A stretch of 64,000 bases of DNA from Cyclobacterium plantarum (lineage in GTDB: Bacteria > Bacteroidota > Bacteroidia > Cytophagales > Cyclobacteriaceae), in the NCBI RefSeq assembly GCF_011290685.1, contig NZ_JAANYN010000004.1, forward strand, positions 1 to 64,000, written 5' to 3'. Under the pieces are notes generated by a model that did not search any database, was not told the DNA's origin, and saw nothing but the letters and a program-made list of their open reading frames with translations. This document shows, piece after piece, positions 6,619 through 38,681 of this stretch. The position numbers and the translations under genes are program-made. The first letter of the stretch is position 1; each line of letters begins with the position of its first letter.

Positions 6619-6751
6619 AACGTTTGAAACCTTTTTTTTACATTGACTATTCATTAAAAAGGTAGAAAAGACATAGACGAAATTGACTAAAGCGATTCTA
6701 AAGTGAAGAAAAATTACAGCCCATACACTGTGTAGTATCCATGCCTGCTGA

Positions 6752-6892
6752 AGCGGTGACCGAAAGTTTGCTATTTTTACTATCTTTGATGCTAGAGGAA
6801 AGAGAAGTGCTTATAAATCCGGCACGGCTACTACACTAAGCGTTACAGGGAAGTTGAAGAAGAACCAAGTAGAATGGAAATCAGTTTTATAA
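6752..6892 (+). pseudogene. short C-terminal gene remnant
   Basis: A 46-codon frame beginning directly after a TGA reads GDRKFAIFTIFDARGKRSAY and continues to TGKLKKNQVEWKSVL-stop. It has no start codon and looks like the tail of a degraded protein gene just upstream of the toxin-antitoxin pair. No family is recognised, so the call rests on protein-like text alone. Confidence 0.3.
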
Positions 6893-6924
6893 TGTAATTT
6901 CATATATTTATTAAAATTTAGACT

Positions 6925-7164
6925 ATGACACATGCAGAACGCCATATCATTGAAACTTATTCTGAGCTTTTTGAAAGCTTGAGTTCTGTAAGCAAATTAG
7001 AGTTGCTGGAACGGCTCGCAAAATCTATTAGGAAAGGAAGAAAGTCTAATGAAAAGGATTTTTTTAGTTCTTTCGGAGGATTTGTTTCAGAAAAGCCAGC
7101 CGAAGAAATCATAAAAGATATTAGGGAAAGCAGGAAATTCAGATCAAAAGACTTGAAAATTTAA
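6925..7164 (+). CDS. VapB-like antitoxin of a type II toxin-antitoxin pair
   Basis: A 79-residue protein whose N-terminal half (ERHIIETYSELFESLSSVSKLELLERLAKSI) forms predicted helices and whose C-terminal half is short, charged and probably unstructured until bound (SFGGFVSEKPAEEIIKDIRESRKF). This organisation, its size and its place 3 nt ahead of a PIN-domain gene identify it as the cognate antitoxin. By analogy with the class it should neutralise the toxin and may repress the shared promoter. The DNA-binding fold type cannot be told from the sequence. Confidence 0.75.
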   Translation: MTHAERHIIETYSELFESLSSVSKLELLERLAKSIRKGRKSNEKDFFSSFGGFVSEKPAEEIIKDIRESRKFRSKDLKI

Positions 7165-24818: not shown

Positions 24819-26447
24819 ATGGAAAAAATTAAAAAACCTGGGGTATACATTGTAGAGGAAAACGCTTTCCCCTCTTCAGTGGTGGAAGTTGCAACAGCAA
24901 TTCCTGCATTTATAGGGTATACTGAAAAAATTCCGGCTGCGGGTGCAGACGGCCTCCTCCGGATCAGCTCGTTAAGGGAATTTGAGCGGTGGTTTGGTGG
25001 TCCGGCAGACTATCGGTTTCGAATGCGTAAAGCTACTGGGGAAGGGGAGAAATCCCGAAGTGAAGCGGACAAAAAAGAGGAAAGGGGTGAAAAGCTAGCT
25101 AAGTTTGATATGCACCTGGACCTGATAGGTGACAAGGAAGCCTATTCTGTGAGTCGGGTCGGAACCGTCTTCAGGCTGTATGAAGCTATGCGATTCTTTT
25201 TTCAGAATGGTGGGGGAGCTTGCTATATCATTTCTGTGGGTGATTATAAGGATCAGATTAGGGAAGAAAGGCTCGCAGACGGACTCCGTAGGCTGGAAAA
25301 TGAACCTGAACCCACCCTGGTACTGCTTCCCGATGCCGTATCTCTGGATACAGCCGAGGCATTTTATAGCCTGTGCCGAAAGGTAATCGCCCATTGCGGG
25401 CAGATGGGCAACCGGATGGCCATTTTGGATGTGTATCAAGGCTACAAAGCCTTTCAAAATCCTGCGGGCGGGAAGTCCGTAGTGGATCGGTTCAGGGAAG
25501 GGGTAGGAACCGAATCACTAAGTTATGCAGCGGCCTATTATCCCTGGTTGGAAACAACGATTGTGCAGGAATCAGAATTGTCATTTCAAAATCTGACGGA
25601 TGATAGCCTGGCACTGCTGGTTGAAATGATCAGTGGAGAACTTGCGCTAACCGATCATCCCGAAAATGAATCAAAAGGCGAAGCCGTTCGAAAGGAGCGG
25701 GTTTTATCCCTGGTAAAACAACTTCCCGATTATACATCAGCTGTCGTGAATAGCTGGGACGATGCCCCGGATACTTCCGGCAAATTATCTCCCGCTAACC
25801 TGCACCGCACGCTTTTGGCGATGAGTCAGTCGTATAAAGCATTAATGGGATTTCTGCAAAAATACCTGAATCAACTGCCACCTGCGGCCGCAATGGCCGG
25901 GTTGTACACGTTGGTGGATTCCACGAGTGGGGTTTGGAAAGCCCCCGCCAATCTTTCCTTGAATTCCGTCATTGCTCCATCTGTACCCATTTCCACAGAA
26001 GAGCAGGAATACCTCAATACCCCCTTGGACGGAAAAGCGGTCAATGCCATACGCTCCTTTCTGGGAGAAGGCGTGCTGGTATGGGGGGCGCGCACATTGG
26101 ATGGAAACAGCAACGACTGGCGTTACATTCCTGTGCGTCGGACGGTGATTGTGCTCGAACAGTCGATGGTGTTAGCCGTCAAAGCCTACACCTTTGAACC
26201 CAATCAGGCTGCTACCTGGATTACTGTCAAATCCATGGTGGAAAATTACCTGACACAGCAGTGGAAAATGGGAGCTTTGGCCGGAGCCAGCTCATCGGAC
26301 GCTTTCTCGGTACGGGTGGGCTTGGAAGAAACGATGACAGTTGAGGATATTTCAAAAGGGATCATGCGGGTAAGGGTTTTGGTCGCTGTGATCCGACCAG
26401 CTGAATTTATTGAAATCACCTTTGAGCAAGCCATGCAAAAGGCTTAA
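24819..26447 (+). CDS. contractile tail sheath protein, orphan
   Basis: A 542-residue sheath protein of the phage/eCIS type. The N-terminus (KKPGVYIVEENAFPSSVVEVATAIPAFIGYTEKI) and the C-terminal core domain (VLEQSMVLAVKAYTFEPNQA, then WITVKSMVENYLTQQWKMGALAG, VRVGLEETMTVEDISKGIMRVRVLVAVIRPAEFIEI) are typical, and the length fits. Sheath subunits polymerise around an inner tube and contract to drive it through a target envelope. Neither tube, baseplate, LysM spike nor ATPase gene is adjacent; the next gene is unrelated. The tube relic at 10134 is on the same strand 14 kb upstream. The function of an isolated sheath gene is unclear; it may be a remnant or serve a system encoded elsewhere. Confidence 0.9.
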   Translation: MEKIKKPGVYIVEENAFPSSVVEVATAIPAFIGYTEKIPAAGADGLLRISSLREFERWFGGPADYRFRMRKATGEGEKSRSEADKKEERGEKLAKFDMHLDLIGDKEAYSVSRVGTVFRLYEAMRFFFQNGGGACYIISVGDYKDQIREERLADGLRRLENEPEPTLVLLPDAVSLDTAEAFYSLCRKVIAHCGQMGNRMAILDVYQGYKAFQNPAGGKSVVDRFREGVGTESLSYAAAYYPWLETTIVQESELSFQNLTDDSLALLVEMISGELALTDHPENESKGEAVRKERVLSLVKQLPDYTSAVVNSWDDAPDTSGKLSPANLHRTLLAMSQSYKALMGFLQKYLNQLPPAAAMAGLYTLVDSTSGVWKAPANLSLNSVIAPSVPISTEEQEYLNTPLDGKAVNAIRSFLGEGVLVWGARTLDGNSNDWRYIPVRRTVIVLEQSMVLAVKAYTFEPNQAATWITVKSMVENYLTQQWKMGALAGASSSDAFSVRVGLEETMTVEDISKGIMRVRVLVAVIRPAEFIEITFEQAMQKA

Positions 26448-27140: not shown

Positions 27141-27198
27141 TTTAAGCATTTCTTAAGATTCATTTAATGGATACTTAAGCGGGTAAAATCGATATTTG
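27141..27198 (+). promoter_or_regulatory. phased CTTAAG half-site array and promoter of the two-component operon
   Basis: Four six-base half-sites stand at exact 11-bp intervals: TTTAAG (27141), CTTAAG (27152), TTTAAT (27163) and CTTAAG (27174). Eleven bases after the last comes GATATTTG (27191-27198), close to the -7 consensus TAnnTTTG, and five bases later the ATG. The same arrangement with the same distances is found before the RND operon at 29771. Phased direct repeats of this kind are the usual binding pattern of OmpR-family response regulators, so this is probably the autoregulatory site of the regulator encoded next. Confidence 0.7.
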
Positions 27199-27202
27199 GT
27201 AG

Positions 27203-27871
27203 ATGAGAATTTTGATAGTTGAAGACGAGCAGGGAATTGCGGCTTTTCTCAAGCAAGGATTAGAGGAAGAGTCTTTTGCAGTGGATGTGGCCGATGAGGG
27301 TAAATCGGGCCTTAGGTTGGCTTTATCAGGAGAATACGATATCCTTTTGTTAGACTGGATGCTCCCGGGATTAAGCGGGATTGAAATTTGCAGGCAGTTT
27401 AGGAAAGAATTTCCAACCACTCCTGTCATTTTCCTTACCGCCAAGGACACGCTTGACGAAACCTTATTTGGTTTGCAGTCTGGGGCAAATGATTACATTA
27501 AAAAGCCCTTTCATTTTGAAGAAATTTTGGAGCGAATCAAAGTGCAATTAAGGCCAAAGATGGGGGAGCACTCTCTTTTTACCTTGGGAATCATTACGTT
27601 AAATACGGAAACCCATCAGGTTTTTAAAGGAAAGGAAGAAATTAATCTCACCCAGAAGGAATTTGCATTATTGGAATACCTCATCCGCAACAAAGGCAAA
27701 GTATGCCGAAGAAGCCGCATTATCGAAAGTGTGTGGGATATCCACTTCGAATACAATTCGGGTGTTATCGACGTATACATCAACGCATTGCGAAAGAAAC
27801 TTTCATTATCCGATGAAGAAAATTACATTCAGACCATCCGTGGTGTAGGTTACATCGCAAAAGAAATATGA
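27203..27871 (+). CDS. OmpR/PhoB-family response regulator
   Basis: A 222-residue two-domain regulator. The receiver has the acidic pocket VEDE (residues 7-9), the phosphoacceptor Asp51 in LLLDWMLPG, Thr in PVIFLTAKD and Lys in DYIKKPFHF. The C-terminal winged helix ends with SGVIDVYINALRKKLSL and IQTIRGVGYIAK. It resembles the CusR/CopR group that controls metal efflux. It overlaps the kinase gene (ATGA) downstream, so the pair is coupled. The phased half-sites before it and before the RND operon support a role in controlling both. The signal is most likely a metal ion such as copper or silver, by context only. Confidence 0.92.
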   Translation: MRILIVEDEQGIAAFLKQGLEEESFAVDVADEGKSGLRLALSGEYDILLLDWMLPGLSGIEICRQFRKEFPTTPVIFLTAKDTLDETLFGLQSGANDYIKKPFHFEEILERIKVQLRPKMGEHSLFTLGIITLNTETHQVFKGKEEINLTQKEFALLEYLIRNKGKVCRRSRIIESVWDIHFEYNSGVIDVYINALRKKLSLSDEENYIQTIRGVGYIAKEI

Positions 27872-29238
27872 ACCTAAGCTTCAAAAATAGAATAGCCCTG
27901 CATTATATGGTGGCGACAGCCATCATCATGGCAGTTGTTTTTGGCACCATCTTTTTGATTGTCAAGAGCACAGTAATACAAAACCTGGACAATGACTTAT
28001 CCTATGAAGCAGAAAAACATCTGAACGAAATAGAATTCGTTGAGGATAGCATTCAATTTATCAATAAGGAAGAATGGCGAGAGCGTGAGCATACAGAGAC
28101 CCAGGTAAACCCAGTATTTATTCAGTTGAATGACAAACAGGGATTGGTAATGGATAGATCTCCCAACCTGAAGCAAGATTTTTTAATTTTTAAGGGGGAC
28201 ACGGATGGAGGGCATTATAATGCCGAACTCACGGATAAACTGATAAGGCAAGTTCAATTGCCAATAAAAGATAAAGGCGAAACTAGAGGATATATTATTG
28301 CGGCCATTTCCTCCGAATCTGCCTTTTCTGTCATTACAAGATTAAGAAATGTATTATTAGCTTCCTATTTCGTGATTTTGATAGGCTTGTATTATGTATC
28401 CCGATTTTTAGCTGGAAGAAGTATGAGTCCTATTCAGGAAATGACACGTACCATCACCCATATCACTCAAAACAACCTGAATGAAAGAGTAACATTGCCT
28501 AAAAATCAGGATGAAATTTTCTTCCTTTCTTCCAGCTTCAATGACTTACTGAAGCGTATTGAAAAGGCCATTGAAAAGGAAAAGCAATTTACTTCGGATG
28601 CATCTCATGAACTCAGGACCCCACTTGCCACCTTGCGGGGTACCCTGGAGGTGCTGATCAGGAAGCCAAGATCCCAACAGGAGTACGAAGAAAAGATACT
28701 TTACAGTCTTGAAGAAATAGACCGAATGACGGCCACCTTGGAGCAACTCCTGATGTTGGCCCGCTTAGAAACATCTGCAGGAAGCAAAAAGGATTCCTTT
28801 ATCCCTATTTCAACGCTCCTTGAAGAATCTATATCGCGGTTTAAAAACCTGATCAAAGAGAAAAAATTGAAAATAAACCTAAGCATCAATCAATCCGAAA
28901 AAGCACTTTTGCCTCATTTCTACAGCAATATCATCGTGGACAATATCCTTAACAATGCTATTAAATATTCGAATAATGGGGGGACGATAAGTATCGGTGT
29001 GGATTATGTCGGCGGTCGAATCATCTGTAATGTTACGGATGAAGGAATCGGAATTAAAGAGGAGGATTTAAACAATATTTACGACAGTTTCTATCGATCT
29101 GATGCCTTAAATCACAGGCAAATTCAGGGAAATGGTCTGGGACTGGCTATAGCAAAGAAATGTGCCAATGCCATTCAAGCTGAATTGAATGTTAGCAGCA
29201 CCTACGGTCAGGGCACCAATGTGATGATTACTTTTTAA
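27868..29238 (+). CDS. sensor histidine kinase
   Basis: A 456-residue membrane kinase: first helix MVATAIIMAVVFGTIFLIV, a periplasmic sensor region of about 130 residues, a second helix (LLASYFVILIGLYYVSRFLA), a HAMP domain (SPIQEMTRTITHITQNNLNERV), the dimerisation domain with His247 in FTSDASHELRTPLATLRG, and an ATPase domain with NIVDNILNNAIKYS, DEGIGIKEEDL and GNGLGLAIAKK. It should phosphorylate the regulator encoded upstream. The sensor region lacks an obvious Cys/His metal cluster, so the stimulus cannot be stated; CusS-like metal sensing is inferred from the neighbouring pump. Confidence 0.92.
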   Translation: MNLSFKNRIALHYMVATAIIMAVVFGTIFLIVKSTVIQNLDNDLSYEAEKHLNEIEFVEDSIQFINKEEWREREHTETQVNPVFIQLNDKQGLVMDRSPNLKQDFLIFKGDTDGGHYNAELTDKLIRQVQLPIKDKGETRGYIIAAISSESAFSVITRLRNVLLASYFVILIGLYYVSRFLAGRSMSPIQEMTRTITHITQNNLNERVTLPKNQDEIFFLSSSFNDLLKRIEKAIEKEKQFTSDASHELRTPLATLRGTLEVLIRKPRSQQEYEEKILYSLEEIDRMTATLEQLLMLARLETSAGSKKDSFIPISTLLEESISRFKNLIKEKKLKINLSINQSEKALLPHFYSNIIVDNILNNAIKYSNNGGTISIGVDYVGGRIICNVTDEGIGIKEEDLNNIYDSFYRSDALNHRQIQGNGLGLAIAKKCANAIQAELNVSSTYGQGTNVMITF

Positions 29239-29330
29239 CTTAATTTGTCTGGATGAAATCGACAGGATTAAAATCATCATTAAACACACAGGGCAATGAT
29301 TATTTTAATTGTCAAAGATTCCATAGCCTG

Positions 29331-29346
29331 CCCCGACTAATCGGGG
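29331..29346. repeat. short dispersed palindrome, copy 1
   Basis: CCCCGA-CTAA-TCGGGG is a perfect 6-bp stem with a 4-nt loop, preceded by ATAGCCTG. Related palindromes with the same CCTG-YCC core are found at 37159 and 51933. It lies between the kinase gene and the VIT relic and could act as a repeat element or a weak terminator. Confidence 0.45.
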
Positions 29347-29427
29347 TGACCATTAGGAAACAATTATAGACACATGAAAGAATAAATCCGTGGAAATCCA
29401 AAAAAACTACCTTCTCTGTCACCGTAA

Positions 29428-29762
29428 ATGGATCGCATGATGAGAAATCCGAAAAACAATTACCTGGACAATCACTACATTCATAGAAGTAACTGGCTTA
29501 GGGCAGCTGTCTTGGCTGCTAATGATGGTATCTTGTCAACTGCAAGTCTTGCAATCGGCGTAGCTGCAGCAAGTGATTTGAGGGATCCGATTATTATTTA
29601 TATGGATTCGCGCTCCTTTTTCTAATACTACTAGGTGTATTGGCAGCGAAGGCTGGAGGGTCCAATATCACCAAAGCCATTATTAGAATTACTTTTTGGG
29701 GCACGGTGGCCATGGGTATTTCCGCTTTAGTTGGCTACTTCCTGGGAGAAGGACTAAAATAA
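29428..29762 (+). pseudogene. VIT/CCC1-family transporter gene with large internal deletion
   Basis: The first 50 codons read NYLDNHYIHRSNWLRAAVLA, then ANDGILSTASLAIGVAAAS, the standard opening of VIT1/CCC1 iron-manganese transporters. After SDLRDPII the frame shifts, and the text jumps to the family's C-terminus in another frame: FALLFLILLGVLAAKAGG, then ITFWGTVAMGISALVGYFLG and a stop at 29762. About 120-150 residues from the middle are missing. The gene is dead. It stands between the metal-type two-component system and the RND pump, so a metal transporter has been lost from this island. Confidence 0.85.
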
Positions 29763-29770
29763 ATACCATT

Positions 29771-29828
29771 CTTAAGCCAATCTTAAGAAAGTCTTGAGAA
29801 AGGCTTTAGGACTGGTCGGCTACATTTG
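29771..29828 (+). promoter_or_regulatory. phased CTTAAG half-site array and promoter of the RND operon
   Basis: Half-sites CTTAAG (29771), CTTAAG (29782), CTTGAG (29793) and CTTTAG (29804) stand exactly 11 bp apart. Eleven bases after the last comes TACATTTG (29821-29828), a full match to TAnnTTTG. The number of sites, their phasing and their distance to the -7 box equal those before the response regulator gene at 27141. This is the likely binding site of that regulator and the promoter of the pump operon. Confidence 0.75.
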
Positions 29829-29855
29829 GTAAGTAATACCAAATGCAGCCCATCA

Positions 29856-32800
29856 ATGTTAGAGAAGATCATACAATACAGTATTCACCACAAACTGATC
29901 GTGCTTTTATTCTCAGCCGGAGTGATCGCTTTTGGAATTTATTCCCTTACTGAGATTCCCATTGGAGCTGTTCCGGATGTCACCAACAATCAGGTGCAAA
30001 TCATCACCACGTCGCGAAATTTGGCTACTGAAGACGTGGAGAAATTCCTTACCTATCCGGTAGAGTTGGAAATGGCCAACCTGCCCAATGTGAAAGAAAT
30101 AAGATCCATTTCTAAGTTTGGGCTCTCCGTGGTAACGGTGGTTTTTGATGATAAAATTGGCACCTATCTTCCCCGACAACTCATCGCTGAAAAAATAAAG
30201 GCAGCCGAAGATAAAATTCCTGCCGGATTTGGAAAACCTTTCATGGGGCCTATCACCACTGGCCTGGGTGAGATTTATCAGTATGTCATTGAGGTGGATT
30301 CGGCACATCGTGACCGGTATTCATTAGCGGATATGCGTACCATACAAGATTGGGTGGTCAGGCGTCGACTTTCCGGCATACCGGGAGTGGTAGAGGTAAA
30401 TACCTGGGGCGGTCATCTCAAACAGTACGAAGTGGCGCTCAATCCGGAAAAACTCCGGAGTTTGAATATCTCTATTTCCCAGGCCTTTTCGGCATTGGAA
30501 AAAAACAATAGCGTGGCCGGAGGGGGCTACATTGAAAAAACCAACCAAACTTATTTTATCAGAGGGGAAGGCATGGTAAGCTCCCTGGAAGATATAGAAA
30601 ACATCGTGGTTGAAAACCGAAAAGGTACCCCCGTTTTTATTAAAGACGTCGCGACCGTAGGTTTTGGACATGCCACCCGATTTGGTGCCATAACGGGCAA
30701 TGGAGAAGGAGAAAAAGTGTTGGGGCAAGTGATGATGCTCAAAGGAGCCAACTCAAAAGCAACCATAGAGGCAGTAAAAGAAAGAGTTGCCGAGATATCG
30801 GCTGCCCTACCTCAGGGTATCCGTATCAATCCCTTTTTGGAGCGAAGTGAGCTTATCGGTAAAACTACCTTTACTATAGCCGAAAATCTGATTTTAGGTT
30901 GTTTAATCGTGATTTTTGTCGTGGTGCTGCTGCTTGGCAATATACGGTCCGGCCTGGTGGTAGCATCCGTCATTCCAATGTGTTTGCTTTTTGCTTTATC
31001 CCTCATGTATATCTTCGGAGTGGATGCCAACCTGATGAGTCTGGGAGCCATTGACTTTGGAATTATCATAGATGGTGCGGTGATTATAGTAGAATTCATA
31101 GCCTACAAAATAACGGCAGAGAGGTCCACATTGATGGCATTGCCCAAAGGAGAAAAACAAAATTACATAGATAAAATTACCCATCATGGTGCCAGCAAAA
31201 TGATGCACTCTGCTGTATTTGGTCAGCTTATTATCATCATTGTGTTCATTCCCATTCTCTCGTTGGTGGGCGTGGAAGGAAAAATGTTCAGGCCAATGGC
31301 CATGGTATTTTCGTTTGCATTGATTGGAGCGATGATCATGTGTTTTACTTACGTACCCGTAATGGCTTCTTTGTTTATTAAGCCATCTGACCCTGACAAA
31401 AAAACAATTTCCTCCCGCCTCATCACTTTTTTGGAAAACAAGTACAGACCAACCATGGCCTGGGCACTTCGGGAGAAAAAAATCGTTTTGAGCTTATCAG
31501 CTGCCTTGATGATTGTAGTTGGCATTCTCTTTAGTCGCATGGGAGGTGAATTTGTACCTACACTGGACGAAGGTGATTTTGTTATCCAACCCGTACTTAA
31601 AACAGGCACTTCCTTAACCAATACGATTAAAGCCACTACCCGTATGGAAAAGATCCTTTTGCAATTTCCTGAGGTAAAGCAGGTTGTGAGTAGGATTGGA
31701 GCGGCCGAAGTACCCACGGACCCCATGTCTATGGAAGAAAGTGATGTTATAATCAAACTGATTCCAAAAGGCGAATGGGTTTCAGCCGAAAGCAAGGACC
31801 AGTTAGCTAATAAATTTAAGGAAGCACTTTCAGCCGAAATCCCAGGGGTGGACTTTGAGTTTACCCAACCTATCGAAATGCGCTTCAATGAATTGATCAC
31901 CGGAGTGCGTGCCGATTTGGCCATTAAAATTTTTGGTGAGGACCTGGACATTCTTTACAACAAGGCCCTGGAGGTGGAAAAGGCCATTCAACATATCGAA
32001 GGTGCAGCCGATATTATCGTCGAGAAAGTGGCGGGTCTCCCACAGATGTCGGTGAATTATAACCGGCAAATGATTGCAAAATATGGGATGAATGTGAATG
32101 AACTCAACAGCATCATCACCATGGGTTTTGCCGGGAAAGCTGCCGGAACCGTATTTGAAGGTGAAAAGCAATTTGATTTAGTGGTTCGTTTTGATCAGGA
32201 ACACCACCGGGATTTGGAGGATATTGAAATGGCGACCGTCCAGCTACCAAATGGAAACCAGGTTCCTCTCAGTGAATTTGCAACTGTCAGTTATACCACG
32301 GGGCCAGCTAAAATTTCGAGAGACGATACGAAACGGAGGATTGTGGTTGGGGTAAACGTACGGGGCCGGGATTTAGAATCGGTGGTGAAAGACGTGCAGC
32401 AGGTCATCAATAGCAAGATTGATTTACCAATTGGCTACACGGTGGAATATGGAGGTCAGTTTGAAAACCTGAGAACTGCCAGAGACCGTTTAATGGTGGC
32501 AGTACCCATAGCCCTTATTTTAATATTTATCCTTCTCTATTTTGCCTTTAATTCGGTGAAAGAAGCCCTTATAATTTACAGTGCCATTCCCATGTCAGCC
32601 GTGGGTGGGGTCATCCTGTTGTACATTAGGGATATGCCATTCAGTATTTCAGCAGGGGTTGGATTTATCGCACTCTTTGGGATCGCTGTACTGAATGGGA
32701 TCGTCCTGATTGAAGAGTTTAAAGACCTAAAGGCGCAGGGCATCCAGGACATCAACAGACGGATTTTGATGGGTACCAGGAACCGGTTACGACCGGTACT

Positions 32801-34187
32801 ACTCACGGCATCGGCCGCAGCATTGGGTTTTTTGCCCATGGCCATTTCCACTTCCGCCGGAGCAGAGGTGCAAAGGCCCTTGGCTACCGTAGTGGTAGGA
32901 GGACTAATATCAGCAACCGCACTTACCTTGGTGGTATTACCCGTTCTTTACGCTTTGTTTGATAGGAAAGGGCATTTTCCAAAAGTAAAGTCAACAGTAC
33001 AAGGCATGGTGATCTTGCTTTTTCTAGGCCTTCCTGCATTTGGATACGGTCAGGGTGAAAAAATTTCGGCCAATCAGGCAGTGGAAATTGCCTTAGAAAA
33101 TAATAGGGGTTTACAAGCATCTTATCAACGGGTAGAGCAAAGTAAGCAATTGTTGGGAAGTGCCATTGACATTGGTAAAACGGAGTTTTATTATAATAAA
33201 GATGAGAACAATATAGCCCCCAATGATTTGGCGCTCAATGTTTGGGGAATTAGTCAATCAATAAAATTCCCCACTGTTTACGGTTCACAGCGGAATGTGA
33301 TGAAAGGTGAAATCCAATTGGCTACTGACCAAAATGCCATGGATAACTATCTGGTAACCAAGGAGGTGTTGAAAGCCTACCACGAAATCGTCTATTGGCA
33401 GGAGATGCTTACTAATTTCAGCTACCTGGATAGTCTGTACAATACCTTTGAGCATGCTGCTAATAGGAAATTTGAGCAAGGAGAGTCCAATTACCTGGAG
33501 AAATTAACCGCTGAGACTAAAAGTAAGGAAATTTCTATCCAGCTACGGCAGATTCAGGAGAGCCGCCAAAAAGCGCGCATTAGGTTGAACAAATGGCTTC
33601 AATCAAGCTCGGAATACACGGCCATCAGTCAATCACTTACCCGGTTGGAATTAAAACCGATGGATACACTAAGCCATCCTGCACTTCAATACTATTCGGA
33701 TGCTTTAACACTTGCCGACAGAAAAATTAATCTGGAAAAACAGCAACTGCTGCCAGATTTGAAAGCTTCTGTTTTCAGGGGTATCAATAGCGGAACAGGG
33801 ATTCAAACCTATCCAGGCTTTCAGGTAGGTATTGGGATACCATTATGGTTTGGTGCACAAAAGTCTAAAATAGACGCTGCTAAAACGGGGGCTTCCATTC
33901 TGGAATCCCAATCCGAAAATTATAAAATGCAGCTGATTTCGCAATATCGGTCGCTTCGTTCAGACTTGAGAAAATATGAAGAGGGGATCAACTATTACCA
34001 CATGTCAGGGAAAAAGCTTTCCGAAGAAACCCTTATCCATGCCACAAAAGCCTTTCAAAACGGTGAAATTGATTTTCTCCAGTACGTCCAATTGCTGGAA
34101 AATGCAACAACGATTGAAACAAACTATTTGAGCACCCTTTTTCAGTACAACATGACAGTACTGGAAGCGAACTACTTAATGAATTAA
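29856..34187 (+). CDS. CusA/CzcA-type heavy-metal RND pump fused to a TolC-like outer-membrane factor
   Basis: A 1443-residue fusion. Residues 1 to about 1045 are a complete HME-RND proton antiporter: start MLEKIIQYSIHHKLIVLLF, GAVPDVTNNQVQI, and the proton-relay helix SLGAIDFGIIIDGAV with Asp near 399 and 405. Then a thirteenth hydrophobic stretch (about 1050-1066) ending LPAFGYGQ looks like an internal signal peptide. The rest (about 1067-1443) is a CusC/TolC-like factor: SANQAVEIALENNRGLQASY, long helices and LPDLKASVF. The factor must reach the outer membrane, so cleavage at the internal signal is plausible. It is 2 nt ahead of the adaptor gene. The metal (Cu/Ag or Co/Zn/Cd) is not decided by the sequence. 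The ATG at 29856 is used; a TTG at 29826 lies inside the promoter. Confidence 0.92.
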   Translation: MLEKIIQYSIHHKLIVLLFSAGVIAFGIYSLTEIPIGAVPDVTNNQVQIITTSRNLATEDVEKFLTYPVELEMANLPNVKEIRSISKFGLSVVTVVFDDKIGTYLPRQLIAEKIKAAEDKIPAGFGKPFMGPITTGLGEIYQYVIEVDSAHRDRYSLADMRTIQDWVVRRRLSGIPGVVEVNTWGGHLKQYEVALNPEKLRSLNISISQAFSALEKNNSVAGGGYIEKTNQTYFIRGEGMVSSLEDIENIVVENRKGTPVFIKDVATVGFGHATRFGAITGNGEGEKVLGQVMMLKGANSKATIEAVKERVAEISAALPQGIRINPFLERSELIGKTTFTIAENLILGCLIVIFVVVLLLGNIRSGLVVASVIPMCLLFALSLMYIFGVDANLMSLGAIDFGIIIDGAVIIVEFIAYKITAERSTLMALPKGEKQNYIDKITHHGASKMMHSAVFGQLIIIIVFIPILSLVGVEGKMFRPMAMVFSFALIGAMIMCFTYVPVMASLFIKPSDPDKKTISSRLITFLENKYRPTMAWALREKKIVLSLSAALMIVVGILFSRMGGEFVPTLDEGDFVIQPVLKTGTSLTNTIKATTRMEKILLQFPEVKQVVSRIGAAEVPTDPMSMEESDVIIKLIPKGEWVSAESKDQLANKFKEALSAEIPGVDFEFTQPIEMRFNELITGVRADLAIKIFGEDLDILYNKALEVEKAIQHIEGAADIIVEKVAGLPQMSVNYNRQMIAKYGMNVNELNSIITMGFAGKAAGTVFEGEKQFDLVVRFDQEHHRDLEDIEMATVQLPNGNQVPLSEFATVSYTTGPAKISRDDTKRRIVVGVNVRGRDLESVVKDVQQVINSKIDLPIGYTVEYGGQFENLRTARDRLMVAVPIALILIFILLYFAFNSVKEALIIYSAIPMSAVGGVILLYIRDMPFSISAGVGFIALFGIAVLNGIVLIEEFKDLKAQGIQDINRRILMGTRNRLRPVLLTASAAALGFLPMAISTSAGAEVQRPLATVVVGGLISATALTLVVLPVLYALFDRKGHFPKVKSTVQGMVILLFLGLPAFGYGQGEKISANQAVEIALENNRGLQASYQRVEQSKQLLGSAIDIGKTEFYYNKDENNIAPNDLALNVWGISQSIKFPTVYGSQRNVMKGEIQLATDQNAMDNYLVTKEVLKAYHEIVYWQEMLTNFSYLDSLYNTFEHAANRKFEQGESNYLEKLTAETKSKEISIQLRQIQESRQKARIRLNKWLQSSSEYTAISQSLTRLELKPMDTLSHPALQYYSDALTLADRKINLEKQQLLPDLKASVFRGINSGTGIQTYPGFQVGIGIPLWFGAQKSKIDAAKTGASILESQSENYKMQLISQYRSLRSDLRKYEEGINYYHMSGKKLSEETLIHATKAFQNGEIDFLQYVQLLENATTIETNYLSTLFQYNMTVLEANYLMN

Positions 34188-34188
34188 T

Positions 34189-35379
34189 ATGAACTTCGCA
34201 TACCTAAAAACCAGAAGTAATCACCCTATAAACCGGCCTGCCTTTGGCTTCTGGATCATTTCGGTTATCGTTGGGCTTTCTTCCTGTTCTTCCAGTTCGG
34301 ATCCGGAAGTGGCTTCCAATGTTGCCCAGGAATCGTCTGGGGTGGAAACTTATGAGATTTCTACAACTCAATTTCAGTCCTCCAACATGACTTTGGGAAC
34401 CATGGAAAAGGTGCCCTTCCATGAAGTGGTAAAAGCCAAAGGCATGATTGATGTACCGCCCGAAAACCGTGCCGCGGTAAGCAGTTATTTTGGTGGGACG
34501 GTGAAAGAAATCCGTTTATTGCCAGGCCAAAGTGTGAAAAAAGGGCAAGAGCTTTTCGTTCTCGAAAATCCGGATTATGTACAGATTCAACAGGATTTTC
34601 TGGAAGCAAAGGGGCAATTGGCCTATCTCCAATCGGACTATGAGCGACAGAAAAACCTGGTTCAGGACAGTATCAGTTCTCAAAAGAAATTTCTTAAAGC
34701 TGAATCTGACTACACGGTTACGAGAGCCAGAGTAGCATCTTTAGGCAAAAAATTGGCGCTTATGAACATCGATCCCAGTACCTTCACCATAGAAAACATC
34801 CGCACCAGCCTTTCTGTACGATCTCCTATAAGTGGGTATGTGACGGAAGTGGCCATTTCAAAGGGGGCTTTCCTGACTCCATCACAAATGGCCGTTACCA
34901 TAGTCAATACAGACCACGTTCACCTGGAAATGAACGTGTTTGAGAAGGACCTGGCAAAAATAAGTGTTGGACAACCCATTCGTTTCAGGATTCAGGAAGA
35001 CAATAGTAAAGAATATGAAGCATTCATTTACTTAATCAGTAAAACCATTGACCCGGAAGAAAGGACTTTGGGGATTCATGGGCATTTAGTGGACGAAAAA
35101 CTTGCGGAAAGATTCAATCCCGGTATGTATGTCGAAGCGGTTATTTATACTACCTCAGAAGAAAAATGGGCATTGCCCAAAGATGCGTTGGTTGAAATCG
35201 AGGGATACTTTTATGTTTTAACACTTCAAAATAGTCCGGAAACAGGCTATACGCTAATTAAAAGGGAAGTCAAAACTGGCCTTTCCAATAGTAGCCATGT
35301 TGAAATCTTAGATTCCCCGGGTCTGGATGAAACCACCAAATTCCTTCTTAACGGAACATTTAATCTTATTAAAGAATAG
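34189..35379 (+). CDS. RND efflux periplasmic adaptor (membrane fusion) lipoprotein
   Basis: A 396-residue adaptor of the CusB/CzcB type. The N-terminus carries a lipobox (VGLSSC-SSSSD), so it is anchored in a membrane by lipid. The lipoyl-like halves are visible (ENRAAVSSYFGGTVKEIRLLPGQSVKKGQELFVLENPDY and IRTSLSVRSPISGYVTEVAISKGAFLT), flanking a helical hairpin (QQDFLEAKGQLAYLQSDYER), followed by the beta-barrel part. No separate metal-chaperone domain of the CusF type is present. It links pump and outer-membrane factor, both encoded in the fusion gene upstream. Confidence 0.92.
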   Translation: MNFAYLKTRSNHPINRPAFGFWIISVIVGLSSCSSSSDPEVASNVAQESSGVETYEISTTQFQSSNMTLGTMEKVPFHEVVKAKGMIDVPPENRAAVSSYFGGTVKEIRLLPGQSVKKGQELFVLENPDYVQIQQDFLEAKGQLAYLQSDYERQKNLVQDSISSQKKFLKAESDYTVTRARVASLGKKLALMNIDPSTFTIENIRTSLSVRSPISGYVTEVAISKGAFLTPSQMAVTIVNTDHVHLEMNVFEKDLAKISVGQPIRFRIQEDNSKEYEAFIYLISKTIDPEERTLGIHGHLVDEKLAERFNPGMYVEAVIYTTSEEKWALPKDALVEIEGYFYVLTLQNSPETGYTLIKREVKTGLSNSSHVEILDSPGLDETTKFLLNGTFNLIKE

Positions 35380-35410: not shown

Positions 35411-35863
35411 ATGACTATGAAAACCAGGAATTATTTAGTTGGCCTATTGCTAATATTAGCTCGGGTATCAACAGTGAGTGCACAGGAATGGCAATTAGAC
35501 CTGAAAGATGCCCAAAAATTGGCCCTTGAAACTGACCGAAAGATCGTTTTGGTTTTTTCGGGTTCGGACTGGTGTGCACCTTGCATCAAGTTGGATAAGG
35601 AGATATGGCAATCAGCCGATTTTCAGACTTATGCCAAGGAAAACTATGTCATGTTGCGCGCGGATTTTCCCCGGAAAAAGACCAATCAATTATCAGAAGC
35701 ACAGGCAATCAAGAATGGGGAATTAGCCGAAAAGTACAACCCTAATGGCTATTTCCCACTGGTAGTAGTATTGGATAAAAAGGCTGGAGTATTGGGGAAA
35801 ACGGGCTATAAAAAAATGAGCCCTAAGGAGTATATCAGCCATTTAAACAGTTTTAATCCCTAA
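35411..35863 (+). CDS. exported thioredoxin-fold protein
   Basis: A 150-residue protein with a Sec signal peptide ending VSAQ and one thioredoxin-like domain. The active-site motif is WCAPC in VFSGSDWCAPCIKLDKEIW, and a cis-Pro region lies in YNPNGYFPLVVVLDKKAG. It acts in the periplasm in thiol-disulfide exchange. It starts 31 nt after the adaptor gene and is 3 nt before apbE, so it may either belong to the pump operon or open the redox set. Reduction of cysteines in the Cys-ending DUF4266 protein is a possible job. The second ATG at 35417 is an equal start. Confidence 0.87.
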   Translation: MTMKTRNYLVGLLLILARVSTVSAQEWQLDLKDAQKLALETDRKIVLVFSGSDWCAPCIKLDKEIWQSADFQTYAKENYVMLRADFPRKKTNQLSEAQAIKNGELAEKYNPNGYFPLVVVLDKKAGVLGKTGYKKMSPKEYISHLNSFNP

Positions 35864-35866
35864 GGA

Positions 35867-36850
35867 ATGGGACGGTTGTTTTTAATTACCCTGTTCGCAT
35901 CCATGGTTCAGGTAACCAGTGCCCAGCAGGTTTTTCACCGAACGACCCTATTAATGGGAAGTCGCTTTGACTTAACTGTAGTAGCAGCTAATGAGGAAGA
36001 AGCTGAAGTATTTCTGGACACTGCTATTGCTGAAATCACCCGGATTGAACGGCTAATATCCTCTTGGGACCCAAATTCTCAAACCTCGGCAATCAATGCA
36101 AACGCAGGAATTAAACCTATTAAAGTAAACAAAGAATTGTTTGATTTAATAACCCGGTCCATTGCCGTATCTGAACTCACGGATGGGGCTTTTGACATCA
36201 GTTATGCTTCCATGGACCGAATTTGGAAGTTTGATGGCAGTATGATTCAAATGCCTACTGCCGAAGAGGTGAAGGCGTCGGTAGAAATGGTTGGGTTTGA
36301 GAAAATTATCCTTGATTCTGGAAAGCAAACTGTTTTTCTCAGTCAAAAGGGAATGAAAATAGGCTTTGGTGCTATTGGCAAAGGCTACGCGGCAGATAAA
36401 GCCAAACAACTATTGATGGGTAAAGGAGCGATTGCCGGGATTATCAATGCTTCCGGTGACATGAATACCTGGGGTAAAAAGCCCGATGGTAGCGATTGGA
36501 AGGTAGCCATTACCAATCCGATGAACAAGAACATTGCCTTTGCTGAATTGCCACTCAAACAGGGGGCAGTAGTCACTAGCGGCGATTACGAAAAGTTTGT
36601 GGAATTTGACAAGGTACGGTATTCCCATATCATCAATCCCCAAACCGGATATCCGGCCACCGGTATTATCAGTGTGACGGTCTTTGCACCCAGTGCCGAA
36701 CTGACAGATGCACTGGCCACTTCTGTTTTCGTCATGGGAAAAGAGGTTGGCATTGACCGGATCAATCAGTTGCCCAACGTAGCCTGCATCATCATAGACG
36801 ATCAGGGGAATATTCACAAATCAGAACATATTAAAATCAATGAAGAATAA
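35867..36850 (+). CDS. apbE: FAD:protein FMN transferase
   Basis: A 327-residue ApbE-type flavin transferase with a Sec signal peptide ending TSAQ. Family motifs: LLMGSRFDLTVVA, ISSWDPNSQTSAIN, the glycine-rich FGAIGKGYAADKAKQLL, IINASGDMNTWGKKP and the late segment YSHIINPQTGYPATGI and AELTDALATSVFVMG. It moves FMN from FAD onto a Thr or Ser of an exported partner. Its stop overlaps the DUF4266 start by 11 nt. The partner in this organism is unknown; the DUF3570 protein encoded downstream has two SGAS sequences that faintly resemble flavinylation sites. Confidence 0.93.
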   Translation: MGRLFLITLFASMVQVTSAQQVFHRTTLLMGSRFDLTVVAANEEEAEVFLDTAIAEITRIERLISSWDPNSQTSAINANAGIKPIKVNKELFDLITRSIAVSELTDGAFDISYASMDRIWKFDGSMIQMPTAEEVKASVEMVGFEKIILDSGKQTVFLSQKGMKIGFGAIGKGYAADKAKQLLMGKGAIAGIINASGDMNTWGKKPDGSDWKVAITNPMNKNIAFAELPLKQGAVVTSGDYEKFVEFDKVRYSHIINPQTGYPATGIISVTVFAPSAELTDALATSVFVMGKEVGIDRINQLPNVACIIIDDQGNIHKSEHIKINEE

Positions 36851-37052
36851 AATCCTTTTTGTCTCTATAGTATTGCTTGGCATGAATGCTTGCATAGCAG
36901 TAAAATCATATGAAAAAGTAAATATCAATGATCCGGACATGGAATTGGTTGATCGAAAGTCGAGAAAATTTGAAACCAGTTTTCAGGTCTATCGGGAGGG
37001 CGCGTCTGGCGCTAACGGGGGAAAATCCGGAGGTGGCTGTGGGTGTAATTGA
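36840..37052 (+). CDS. DUF4266 small lipoprotein with Cys-rich tail
   Basis: A 70-residue protein: signal sequence with a Cys near residue 18 (LLGMNAC), probably a lipoprotein although MNAC is not an ideal lipobox, then KVNINDPDMELVDRKSRKFE and a glycine-rich end GASGANGGKSGGGCGCN. The GGGCGCN ending is the hallmark of DUF4266. Its function is unknown; the two cysteines could bind a metal or be a thioredoxin substrate. It overlaps apbE by 11 nt and is always met with DUF3570 proteins as far as I recall, which is the case here. Confidence 0.85.
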   Translation: MKNKILFVSIVLLGMNACIAVKSYEKVNINDPDMELVDRKSRKFETSFQVYREGASGANGGKSGGGCGCN

Positions 37053-37158
37053 ACGGCTTTTTATTACGAAATCGAGCCTGCTTATGGCATGAGGAGAACG
37101 TCACATTCGGAGATAATTATAAAGCAGGGGAGAATCTCATGAGAGTTGGGACAGGCTA

Positions 37159-37178
37159 TCCCGACCTTTGGTACGGGA
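37159..37178. repeat. short dispersed palindrome, copy 2
   Basis: TCCCGACC-TTT-GGTACGGGA forms an 8-bp stem with one bulged A. Read on the minus strand the flank contains ATAGCCTGTCCC, which matches the flank of the copy at 29331. It lies 50 nt ahead of the DUF3570 start. Confidence 0.4.
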
Positions 37179-37211
37179 CAAGTTATGACCGCTGAAGAAA
37201 AATTTAAAAAA

Positions 37212-38681
37212 ATGAAAATAGTTGGGTTCCTTCTTCTTTGTATGCTTCCATTTTTGGCCCTGGCGCAAAATGATAAAGACAGTACTTCTGTTTTTAAGAA
37301 ACGCGTTCTTGAAAGCGTTGAAATGGATATACTTACCAGCTTCTACGCGCAGGACGGAAAAAATGCAGCAGTAACGGGCGGCATCGGCACTGAAGAACTC
37401 ACGGACCTGGCAACAGACATCCATATTTCAATTCCACTTAATGATGATGATGTGTTGCGAATAAACGGTACCGTTTCTGCCTACACCTCTGCATCGTCTA
37501 GTAACCTGAATCCCTTTTCAGGGGCTTCCAGAGGCCAAGACGAGGATGATGACGAGGACGACGATGACCATGAAGATAAGGGAATGGAAAACGGTGAAAA
37601 CACGGGTACTCCCTGGGCTGCTTCATCCGGTGCTTCAAGAAAAGACACCTGGGCAGCTGTTAACGCTAGTTACAGTTATTCTTCTGAGGACAGAAATTCC
37701 ATTTATTCAGCAAATTTGAATTTTGCAAATGAATACGATTATACTTCATTTGGTGCAGGAGTAGGATTTGTTCGCCTATTCAACCAAAAAAATTCCGAAT
37801 TAAGTCTGAATACCGCCATTTACTTAGATACCTGGCGACCAGAATATCCAACAGAAATAAAGACCTATATAAAGGAAAATGGAGACTTAAATGCTGATTT
37901 TTTTGAAGGAGTAACTATTTTAAACGAAAATGGTACGGCAATAAATAAATTTTCCGTTGATGCCTGGAGGCCTTTTAAAACCAGCCTGGTTGAAAACAAT
38001 AAACGAAATACCTATACTTTTTCCATAGGTTTTTTACAAATCTTGAGTAAAACGACGCAGTTTTCAGTTTTTTCGGACATCACCTATCAAACCGGGTGGT
38101 TGTCCAATCCAATGCAGCGCGTCTATTTTGCCGATAAGGATAATTTTTATATCGGAAACGCCGAGAGTATTCCGTTTTATACCGAGCCAAAAAATAAAGA
38201 TGTTTTTCAATTGGCAGATGACATTGAGAGGCTTCCTGATACGCGTTTTAAATTACCGATAGGAGTAAGGATTAATCAGTATGTGAATGAATTCCTGGTA
38301 TTAAGAAGTTATTATCGTTATTACCTGGATGATTGGGGCATTCGGTCACATACTATTAATTTGGAATTGGCAATTAAACTTGGACAGAATTTCTCCTTCT
38401 ATCCAAGTTATCGCTTTTATAATCAGACTGCGGCTACCTACTTCGCTCCTTTTGAAAAGTTAGTTTCCAGCAATGCTTACTATACATCTGATTTTGACCT
38501 TTCAACGTACAATGCCAATCAGGTTGGGTTCGGTATGAAATACACAGATATTTTTACATCAGCTCATCTGTGGAAATTCGGTTTAAAGGGACTTACTATT
38601 GATTACAGTAATTATGCGCGCAACACGGGTTTGAAAGCAGCTATAGTATCTCTTGGGGCTAGTTTTGTACTGACAGATTAA
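37212..38681 (+). CDS. DUF3570 domain outer-membrane-type protein
   Basis: A 489-residue exported protein: signal peptide MKIVGFLLLCMLPFLALAQ, then alternating beta-strand text to the C-terminus, as expected for a beta-barrel (for example VNASYSYSSEDRNSIYSANL and KLGQNFSFYPSYRFYNQTAA). Near residues 111-125 lies a very acidic run (DEDDDEDDDDHEDK), and on either side SGAS sequences (residues near 103 and 138). The start at 37212 gives the signal peptide; upstream in-frame codons do not. With thioredoxin, ApbE and DUF4266 it forms a recurring set of unknown purpose, probably envelope redox or metal handling. Confidence 0.87.
   Translation: MKIVGFLLLCMLPFLALAQNDKDSTSVFKKRVLESVEMDILTSFYAQDGKNAAVTGGIGTEELTDLATDIHISIPLNDDDVLRINGTVSAYTSASSSNLNPFSGASRGQDEDDDEDDDDHEDKGMENGENTGTPWAASSGASRKDTWAAVNASYSYSSEDRNSIYSANLNFANEYDYTSFGAGVGFVRLFNQKNSELSLNTAIYLDTWRPEYPTEIKTYIKENGDLNADFFEGVTILNENGTAINKFSVDAWRPFKTSLVENNKRNTYTFSIGFLQILSKTTQFSVFSDITYQTGWLSNPMQRVYFADKDNFYIGNAESIPFYTEPKNKDVFQLADDIERLPDTRFKLPIGVRINQYVNEFLVLRSYYRYYLDDWGIRSHTINLELAIKLGQNFSFYPSYRFYNQTAATYFAPFEKLVSSNAYYTSDFDLSTYNANQVGFGMKYTDIFTSAHLWKFGLKGLTIDYSNYARNTGLKAAIVSLGASFVLTD

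Follow-up and report, generated by a model that had tools for sequence, protein, structure and literature searches.

The locus examined here lies in a window of 64,000 nucleotides of the Cyclobacterium plantarum genome (Bacteroidota; positions 1 to 64,000 of contig NZ_JAANYN010000004.1, assembly GCF_011290685.1) and raises the question of why two of its promoters, one in front of a gene for a response regulator (RR) and the other in front of an operon for a heavy-metal RND efflux pump, carry the same kind of array of four CTTAAG-like half-sites followed by a -7 box, and which protein would bind there. By the sequence evidence presented below the array is a real operator, very probably that of the RR encoded at 27203-27871, which would bind it as two dimers and activate both its own operon and the CzcA/ZneA-like pump.

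Two arrays of a common design and their association with the regulator gene

Reading of the sequence bore out the two four-site arrays of the initial annotation at their coordinates (Table 1), with steps of 11 bp and 11 nt between the last half-site and the box, and both boxes end in TTTG at the same distance from their respective array. The arrays had been called identical, which holds for their architecture but not for their sequence, as 23 of their 39 positions are the same and, of the 40 bp upstream, 10 are. This pattern of agreement, within the arrays and not in the unrelated flanks, therefore indicates a common design, and duplication of one promoter segment was ruled out. Neither does a full TAnnTTTG box, proposed for both promoters, apply to that of the RR, which begins with G.

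When the pattern YTTAAG, repeated four times at 11-bp steps with up to three mismatches, was searched, just the two arrays matched within the window and no match appeared in 100 shuffles. The scan of the whole genome (6,169,285 bases) that had been suggested as a check returned only these two places, and a backwards control pattern returned none; since CTTAAG is palindromic, each array was matched on either strand. As had been claimed, these counts make an origin by chance very unlikely and, together with the conservation of the arrays across orders (assigned by record titles), they rule it out; that the arrays reflect chance or a single copied promoter segment can thus be given practically no weight.

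As expected in the initial annotation, the array provides a searchable motif, though as a full sequence model and not as the strict four-site pattern, which was non-specific in a sample of the family (see below) and was therefore replaced by models. Model R1, a sequence-only model of 62 positions and 80 rows, was made from 88 deduplicated arrays, minus 10 removed by eye, plus the two window arrays. Since part of the training set of R1 came from this family, a second model, R2, was built without Cytophagales, keeping 56 of the 80 rows of R1, from which the window, the Cytophagales and metagenome-assembled genomes of unclear taxonomy had been left out by record title. R1 gave two matches in the source genome (E 4.2e-11 and 5.9e-7; next best 0.197), and R2 at E <= 1e-3 gave exactly the two window arrays (E 5.8e-9 and 2.7e-4). 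Therefore, the regulon that can be detected in this genome consists of these two promoters, at this one locus.

Lack of conservation in close relatives had been set beforehand as the result that would refute the arrays; both were present in the five Cyclobacterium loci fetched (L003-L007), two of which (L003 and L005) have TACATTCG in place of TACATTTG as the pump box. Conservation was further followed in the best 80 of 249 loci with RR relatives from a protein search (98 to 76% identity), which by record titles belong to Cyclobacterium, Algoriphagus, Fulvivirga, Dyadobacter, many Flavobacteriaceae, Saprospiraceae and others. A core pair of half-sites stood 55-105 bp before the RR gene in 70 of the 80, another array with a TTTG box was found in 69, both were found in 60 and at least one in 79; in the sole exception (L073) the sequence begins 4 nt before the RR gene, and an array at 2041 has TTTA replacing TTTG. 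Of 81 RR starts, 66 had the core pair 60-62 bp upstream of the ATG and 2 had it elsewhere within 100 bp. Exact TTAAG-TTAAG distances on the gene strand of the 80 loci were 11 bp in 192 cases, 22 bp in 16 and 33 bp in 15, with 5 cases or fewer for each of the remaining distances up to 40 bp; the reversed control GAATT occurred 4 times at 11 bp. In some of these relatives (L016:7035, L034:7035 and similar ones), the end of the kinase gene appears, by eye, to reach into the first half-site TTTAAG.

The association of the array with the RR was assayed across genomes with thresholds of E <= 1e-3 for the array and E <= 1e-60 for the RR. Among 196 genomes of the family, R1 detected arrays in 35 and the RR was found in 34; 33 had both, one the RR only (G014), two the array only (G028 and G298) and 160 neither (p 7e-34). 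With R2, arrays were found in 30 genomes, namely in 29 of the 34 with the RR and in one of the 162 without it (G298; 29/5/1/161, p 2e-28). The two array-only genomes make sense from their sequences: in G298 the array directly precedes an RR gene that matches over residues 1-83 only, and some 3.7 kb from the array of G028 lies the start of a CzcA-like gene (53% identity). In G298, of the same genus (contig C7, L151, about 6722-7035), the RR-promoter array is thus kept before a truncated RR match, as if the system were decaying. Within 12 kb of an RR gene lay 45 of the 48 R1 array matches. In a sample of 149 genomes of the class, arrays were found at E <= 1e-3 in 8 of 10 genomes with the RR and in 0 of 139 others; at E <= 0.01, R1 matched 15 of the 149, 8 of the 10 and 7 of the 139, these seven, with E values of 0.00101 to 0.00966, are taken as noise by the cut-off of 1e-3, which was chosen after seeing them.

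The first genes behind extra arrays in relatives, nine of which were scanned, encoded RND pumps (3), DUF2231 proteins (2), thioredoxin-like proteins (2), a Rieske protein and a rubrerythrin-like protein, which suggests a wider regulon in some relatives. Extra arrays before DUF2231, Rieske, rubrerythrin-like and thioredoxin-like genes were seen at L016:7117-7581, L066:7156-7593, L065:7283-7981 and L036:7126-7557.

Strength of the half-sites and geometry of the promoters

The initial annotation described the four half-sites as variants of CTTAAG. They are not equal ones, since across relatives half-sites 3 and 4 are degenerate and half-sites 1 and 2 near-invariant, the latter in sets partly selected by those same sites. 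The pump-type set comprised arrays that had an exact core, stood on the gene strand and lay outside large open reading frames (124), 91 of them with TTTG at offset 48-51; the 90 at offset 49-50 were reduced to 57 by removal of near-duplicates, and 58 RR-type arrays to 31. Because of this selection, half-sites 1 and 2 and the TTTG appear more conserved than they are, which does not apply to half-sites 3 and 4. At these unselected positions, the match to TTAAG in the 57 pump-type arrays was 3.44/5 at +22 and 3.33/5 at +33, compared to a mean of 1.48 in same-base shuffles and a maximum over all offsets of 2.07 in 500 of them; in the 31 RR-type arrays it was 2.90/5 and 3.48/5, with a shuffle maximum of 2.32. 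No such signal was found at -11 or +44 (1.30 and 1.35 in pump-type, 1.77 and 1.65 in RR-type arrays). As judged from these sequences, the operator is a strong upstream pair plus a weak downstream pair, not four equal sites.

The half-site reads YTTAAG, often followed by A or C and then by A's. For a distance of 11 nt to the box (24 distinct pump-type arrays), the composite is YTTAAGCNAAT-CTTAAGAAANN-NTTNAGAAANN-NYTWAG, 11 nt, TACATTTG, and 64 arrays with 10 nt to the box show the same half-sites and CNAAT spacer, the later spacers agreeing less.

In Flavobacterium johnsoniae the -7 element spans T-12 to G-5 (PMC6847099). This convention, applied to the boxes of the window, places the start of RR transcription at 27203, the A of the RR ATG, and that of the pump at 29833, with a leader of 23 nt. 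On this scale the array spans about -62 to -24 and its downstream pair covers the -33 region; TTTG near -33 was not found in either window promoter, that of the pump offering no more than a TTG, within half-site 3, at -38. An A..TTTG box exactly 4 nt before the ATG was found at 59 of the 80 RR starts versus 2 of 495 other open reading frames of the same loci; in the remaining RR starts the box was 3 nt away in two and 18 nt away in one, and 18 had no such box. From this spacing, the RR mRNA is probably leaderless. Leaderless mRNAs make up 5.5% of those mapped in F. psychrophilum (PMC9723704), against which the predicted regulator mRNA would be unusual.

The genes of the locus

The features of the locus are collected in Table 1.

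Table 1. Half-sites, -7 boxes and genes of the two promoters in the window.
Feature	Position	Strand	Sequence, domains and basis
Half-site 1, RR promoter	27141..27146	+	TTTAAG, read in sequence; predicted -62
Half-site 2, RR promoter	27152..27157	+	CTTAAG, read in sequence; logo
Half-site 3, RR promoter (weaker)	27163..27168	+	TTTAAT, read in sequence; offset test
Half-site 4, RR promoter	27174..27179	+	CTTAAG, just downstream of -33; offset test
-7 box, RR promoter	27191..27198	+	GATATTTG; 11 nt after half-site 4, 4 nt before start codon
RR, OmpR/PhoB family	27203..27871	+	Pfam Response_reg + Trans_reg_C; mRNA predicted leaderless
Sensor histidine kinase	27868..29238	+	HAMP, HisKA, HATPase_c; nearest NCBIfam cztS_silS_copS, under cut-off
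Half-site 1, pump promoter	29771..29776	+	CTTAAG, read in sequence; logo
Half-site 2, pump promoter	29782..29787	+	CTTAAG, read in sequence; logo
Half-site 3, pump promoter	29793..29798	+	CTTGAG; consensus at +22 NTTNAG
Half-site 4, pump promoter	29804..29809	+	CTTTAG; consensus at +33 NYTWAG
-7 box, pump promoter	29821..29828	+	TACATTTG; 11 nt after half-site 4; predicted transcription start 29833
CzcA/ZneA-like heavy-metal RND pump fused to OEP (outer-membrane channel) domain	29856..34187	+	ACR_tran + OEP
CzcB/CusB-like periplasmic adaptor	34189..35379	+	HlyD_D23; TIGR01730
Thioredoxin-like protein and ApbE flavin transferase	35411..36850	+	Domains

The RR has a receiver domain (103 bits) and a winged-helix Trans_reg_C domain (89.5 bits), both over their cut-offs, and hence belongs to the OmpR/PhoB family. 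It is 98% identical to the RR of Cyclobacterium salsum, and the source genome encodes four further full-length RR matches. Its best NCBIfam match is TIGR01387 (CzcR/SilR/CopR), at 213 bits, below the cut-off of 279.2; likewise, the best match of the kinase is the CzcS/SilS/CopS model, with 204.6 bits for a cut-off of 292.55. The pump reached 1112 bits with TIGR00914 (CusA/CzcA heavy-metal RND; cut-off 701) and is a member of this family. Its best solved relative is ZneA, to which it is nearer than to CusA, a hint at a divalent cation as substrate.

Genes for the thioredoxin-like, ApbE and DUF3570 proteins (35411-38681) trail those of the pump and the adaptor, and from their spacing the first two are possibly co-transcribed in the pump operon. 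Between the kinase gene and the pump array (29420-29762) is the remnant of a broken gene for a VIT-family transporter, an intact VIT1 gene being present at the equivalent place in the Salegentibacter locus L009 (7110-7817). Further upstream, a gene with phage tail sheath domains (24819-26447; the second domain under its cut-off) is possibly part of a contractile tail-like system.

Proposed regulation, its alternatives and known systems

From the array, its phase, its conservation, its co-occurrence with the RR and its spacings, all of them read in the sequence, we infer the identity of the binding protein, its dimers and their cooperativity, the activation and the inducer. The kinase would sense metal or a related envelope stress, and the phosphorylated RR would bind head-to-tail on the 11-bp direct repeats. 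Since the half-site and the 5-bp spacer are those of PmrA and CiaR, and PmrA binds head-to-tail, the RR would do so as two tandem dimers, one on the upstream pair, the stronger of the two (about -62 to -46), and the other on the weaker pair downstream of it (about -40 to -24), over -33 and just upstream of the -7 box; both the 11-bp phase and membership in the OmpR/PhoB family agree with binding of two dimers on one face of the DNA. The bound RR would recruit RNA polymerase like PhoB/PmrA-type activators and raise the expression of both the RR-kinase operon (autoregulation), whose transcript probably starts at the A of the RR AUG, and the CzcA/ZneA-like efflux operon. Most likely, one sensor system switches on itself and a metal-export pump.

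Several observations weigh against this reading. In the sample of 98 family genomes, which includes the source genome, the strict pattern with up to three mismatches was found in 21, compared to 22 for the backwards control. The co-occurrence measured with R1 is partly circular, as this model was trained on RR-linked arrays partly from this family; R2 reduces this circularity, yet its training arrays, from other orders, are also RR-linked. The RR is present in G150 and G161 with no R1 match found in either genome (L143 of G150 has no core pair with up to one mismatch on the scanned strand, and L148 of G161 has two imperfect ones 130-175 bp upstream), and in G196 the array matches are on other contigs than the RR. 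A core pair within 100 bp was not found at 13 of the 81 RR starts, one of them cut by a contig end. The positions 1 bp away from the weak half-sites also showed raised matches (2.88 at +34 and 2.32 at +23 in pump-type, 2.35 at +32 in RR-type arrays), and therefore the phase is resolved to about one base. Both weak sites reach at least 3/5 matches in 44 of the 57 pump-type and 20 of the 31 RR-type arrays, a degeneracy by which the remaining arrays may rely on fewer sites. Finally, the RR is closer to Escherichia coli CusR (40% identity) than to BasR/PmrA (34%).

The degeneracy of half-sites 3 and 4 beside a near-invariant upstream pair would also fit a plain two-site box of the PmrA/CiaR type, in which only the upstream pair binds the RR and the rest is a remnant or an A/T-rich spacer, the more so as general AT-rich motifs near -18 and -28 are described for F. 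johnsoniae promoters (PMC6847099). This is unlikely, however, given that the TTAAG matches at +22 and +33 are well over the maximum of the same-base shuffles and that the signal does not extend to -11 or +44. Somewhat less probable still is a role of the RR as a repressor that blocks polymerase at the -33 region until the signal releases it; the downstream pair does sit where polymerase would contact -33, but the lack of TTTG there in both promoters fits the need for an activator, and the two-component systems of metal pumps are typically activators. CiaR also activates from similar sites (PMC3091779). It is improbable that a DNA-binding protein other than this RR uses the arrays, as their presence tracks the RR across the 196 genomes and one of them stands at its own promoter; moreover, the genome has four other full-length RR matches, yet no third comparable array.

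Activation by the RR from four half-sites can be compared with several known systems. PmrA (BasR) of enterobacteria and Acinetobacter is also an OmpR/PhoB-family regulator, and its half-sites CTTAAG and XTTAAT, with 5 bp between, are bound head-to-tail (PMC3973317), the site in A. baumannii being TTTAAG-N5-TTTAAG (PMC10927774). The arrays have the form of such an operator (direct repeat of YTTAAG/T with a 5-bp spacer), but PmrA has two half-sites and polymyxin-resistance targets whereas there are four half-sites here, and the RR scored 153 bits with the PmrA model NF007928, below its cut-off of 330. For CiaR of streptococci, searches used the direct repeat NTTAAG-N5-TTTAAG at 10 nt from the -10 box (PMC3091779), and the CiaR helix VVEVYVSKVRKKL resembles GVIDVYINALRKKL of the present RR. 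In the present arrays half-site 4 is separated from the -7 box by a similar distance, 10-11 nt, and the array agrees with a promoter of the CiaR type (repeat about 10 nt upstream of the -10/-7 box), its strongest pair sitting 22 bp further upstream than the CiaR-like repeat position; CiaR, in contrast, has two half-sites, at a Firmicute promoter. The CiaR regulon also differs from the one described here.

CzcRS/SilRS/CopRS, the best NCBIfam matches of the RR and the kinase, likewise have a CzcA/CusA pump as their target, but both proteins are under the curated cut-offs, and CusR/CopR sites are known as inverted repeats rather than direct repeats of CTTAAG. Two dimers bind four half-sites phased at 11 bp in the tandem Pho boxes of E. 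coli pstS and at PhoP sites of Bacillus subtilis, where half-site and signal differ from those here. A search of the open-access literature turned up no description of such an operator for any OmpR-type regulator linked to metals in Bacteroidota; the TTAAG in the excerpt of PMC11213822 is part of a primer. The parts of the system are of known kinds. What sets it apart is the number and graded strength of its half-sites, its link to a metal RND pump whose two-component system scores below the CzcR/CopR cut-off, the Bacteroidota promoter type and the fixed, probably leaderless RR start.

Tentatively, and with rather less confidence than in the operator itself, the arrangement may be seen as a cassette spread through Bacteroidota, in which an operator graded in affinity would act as a two-step threshold switch, a rigid unit of operator, -7 box and start codon would give a leaderless RR mRNA, and the pump promoter would combine the same operator with a normal leader. 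If so, one signal would act on regulator and pump alike at the level of transcription, but differently at that of translation. In any case, the operator is precise and conserved and can be searched for; it has a regulon of two promoters in this genome and additional candidate targets in some relatives, and it places the PmrA/CiaR half-site in another phylum, on the divergent promoter type of that phylum.

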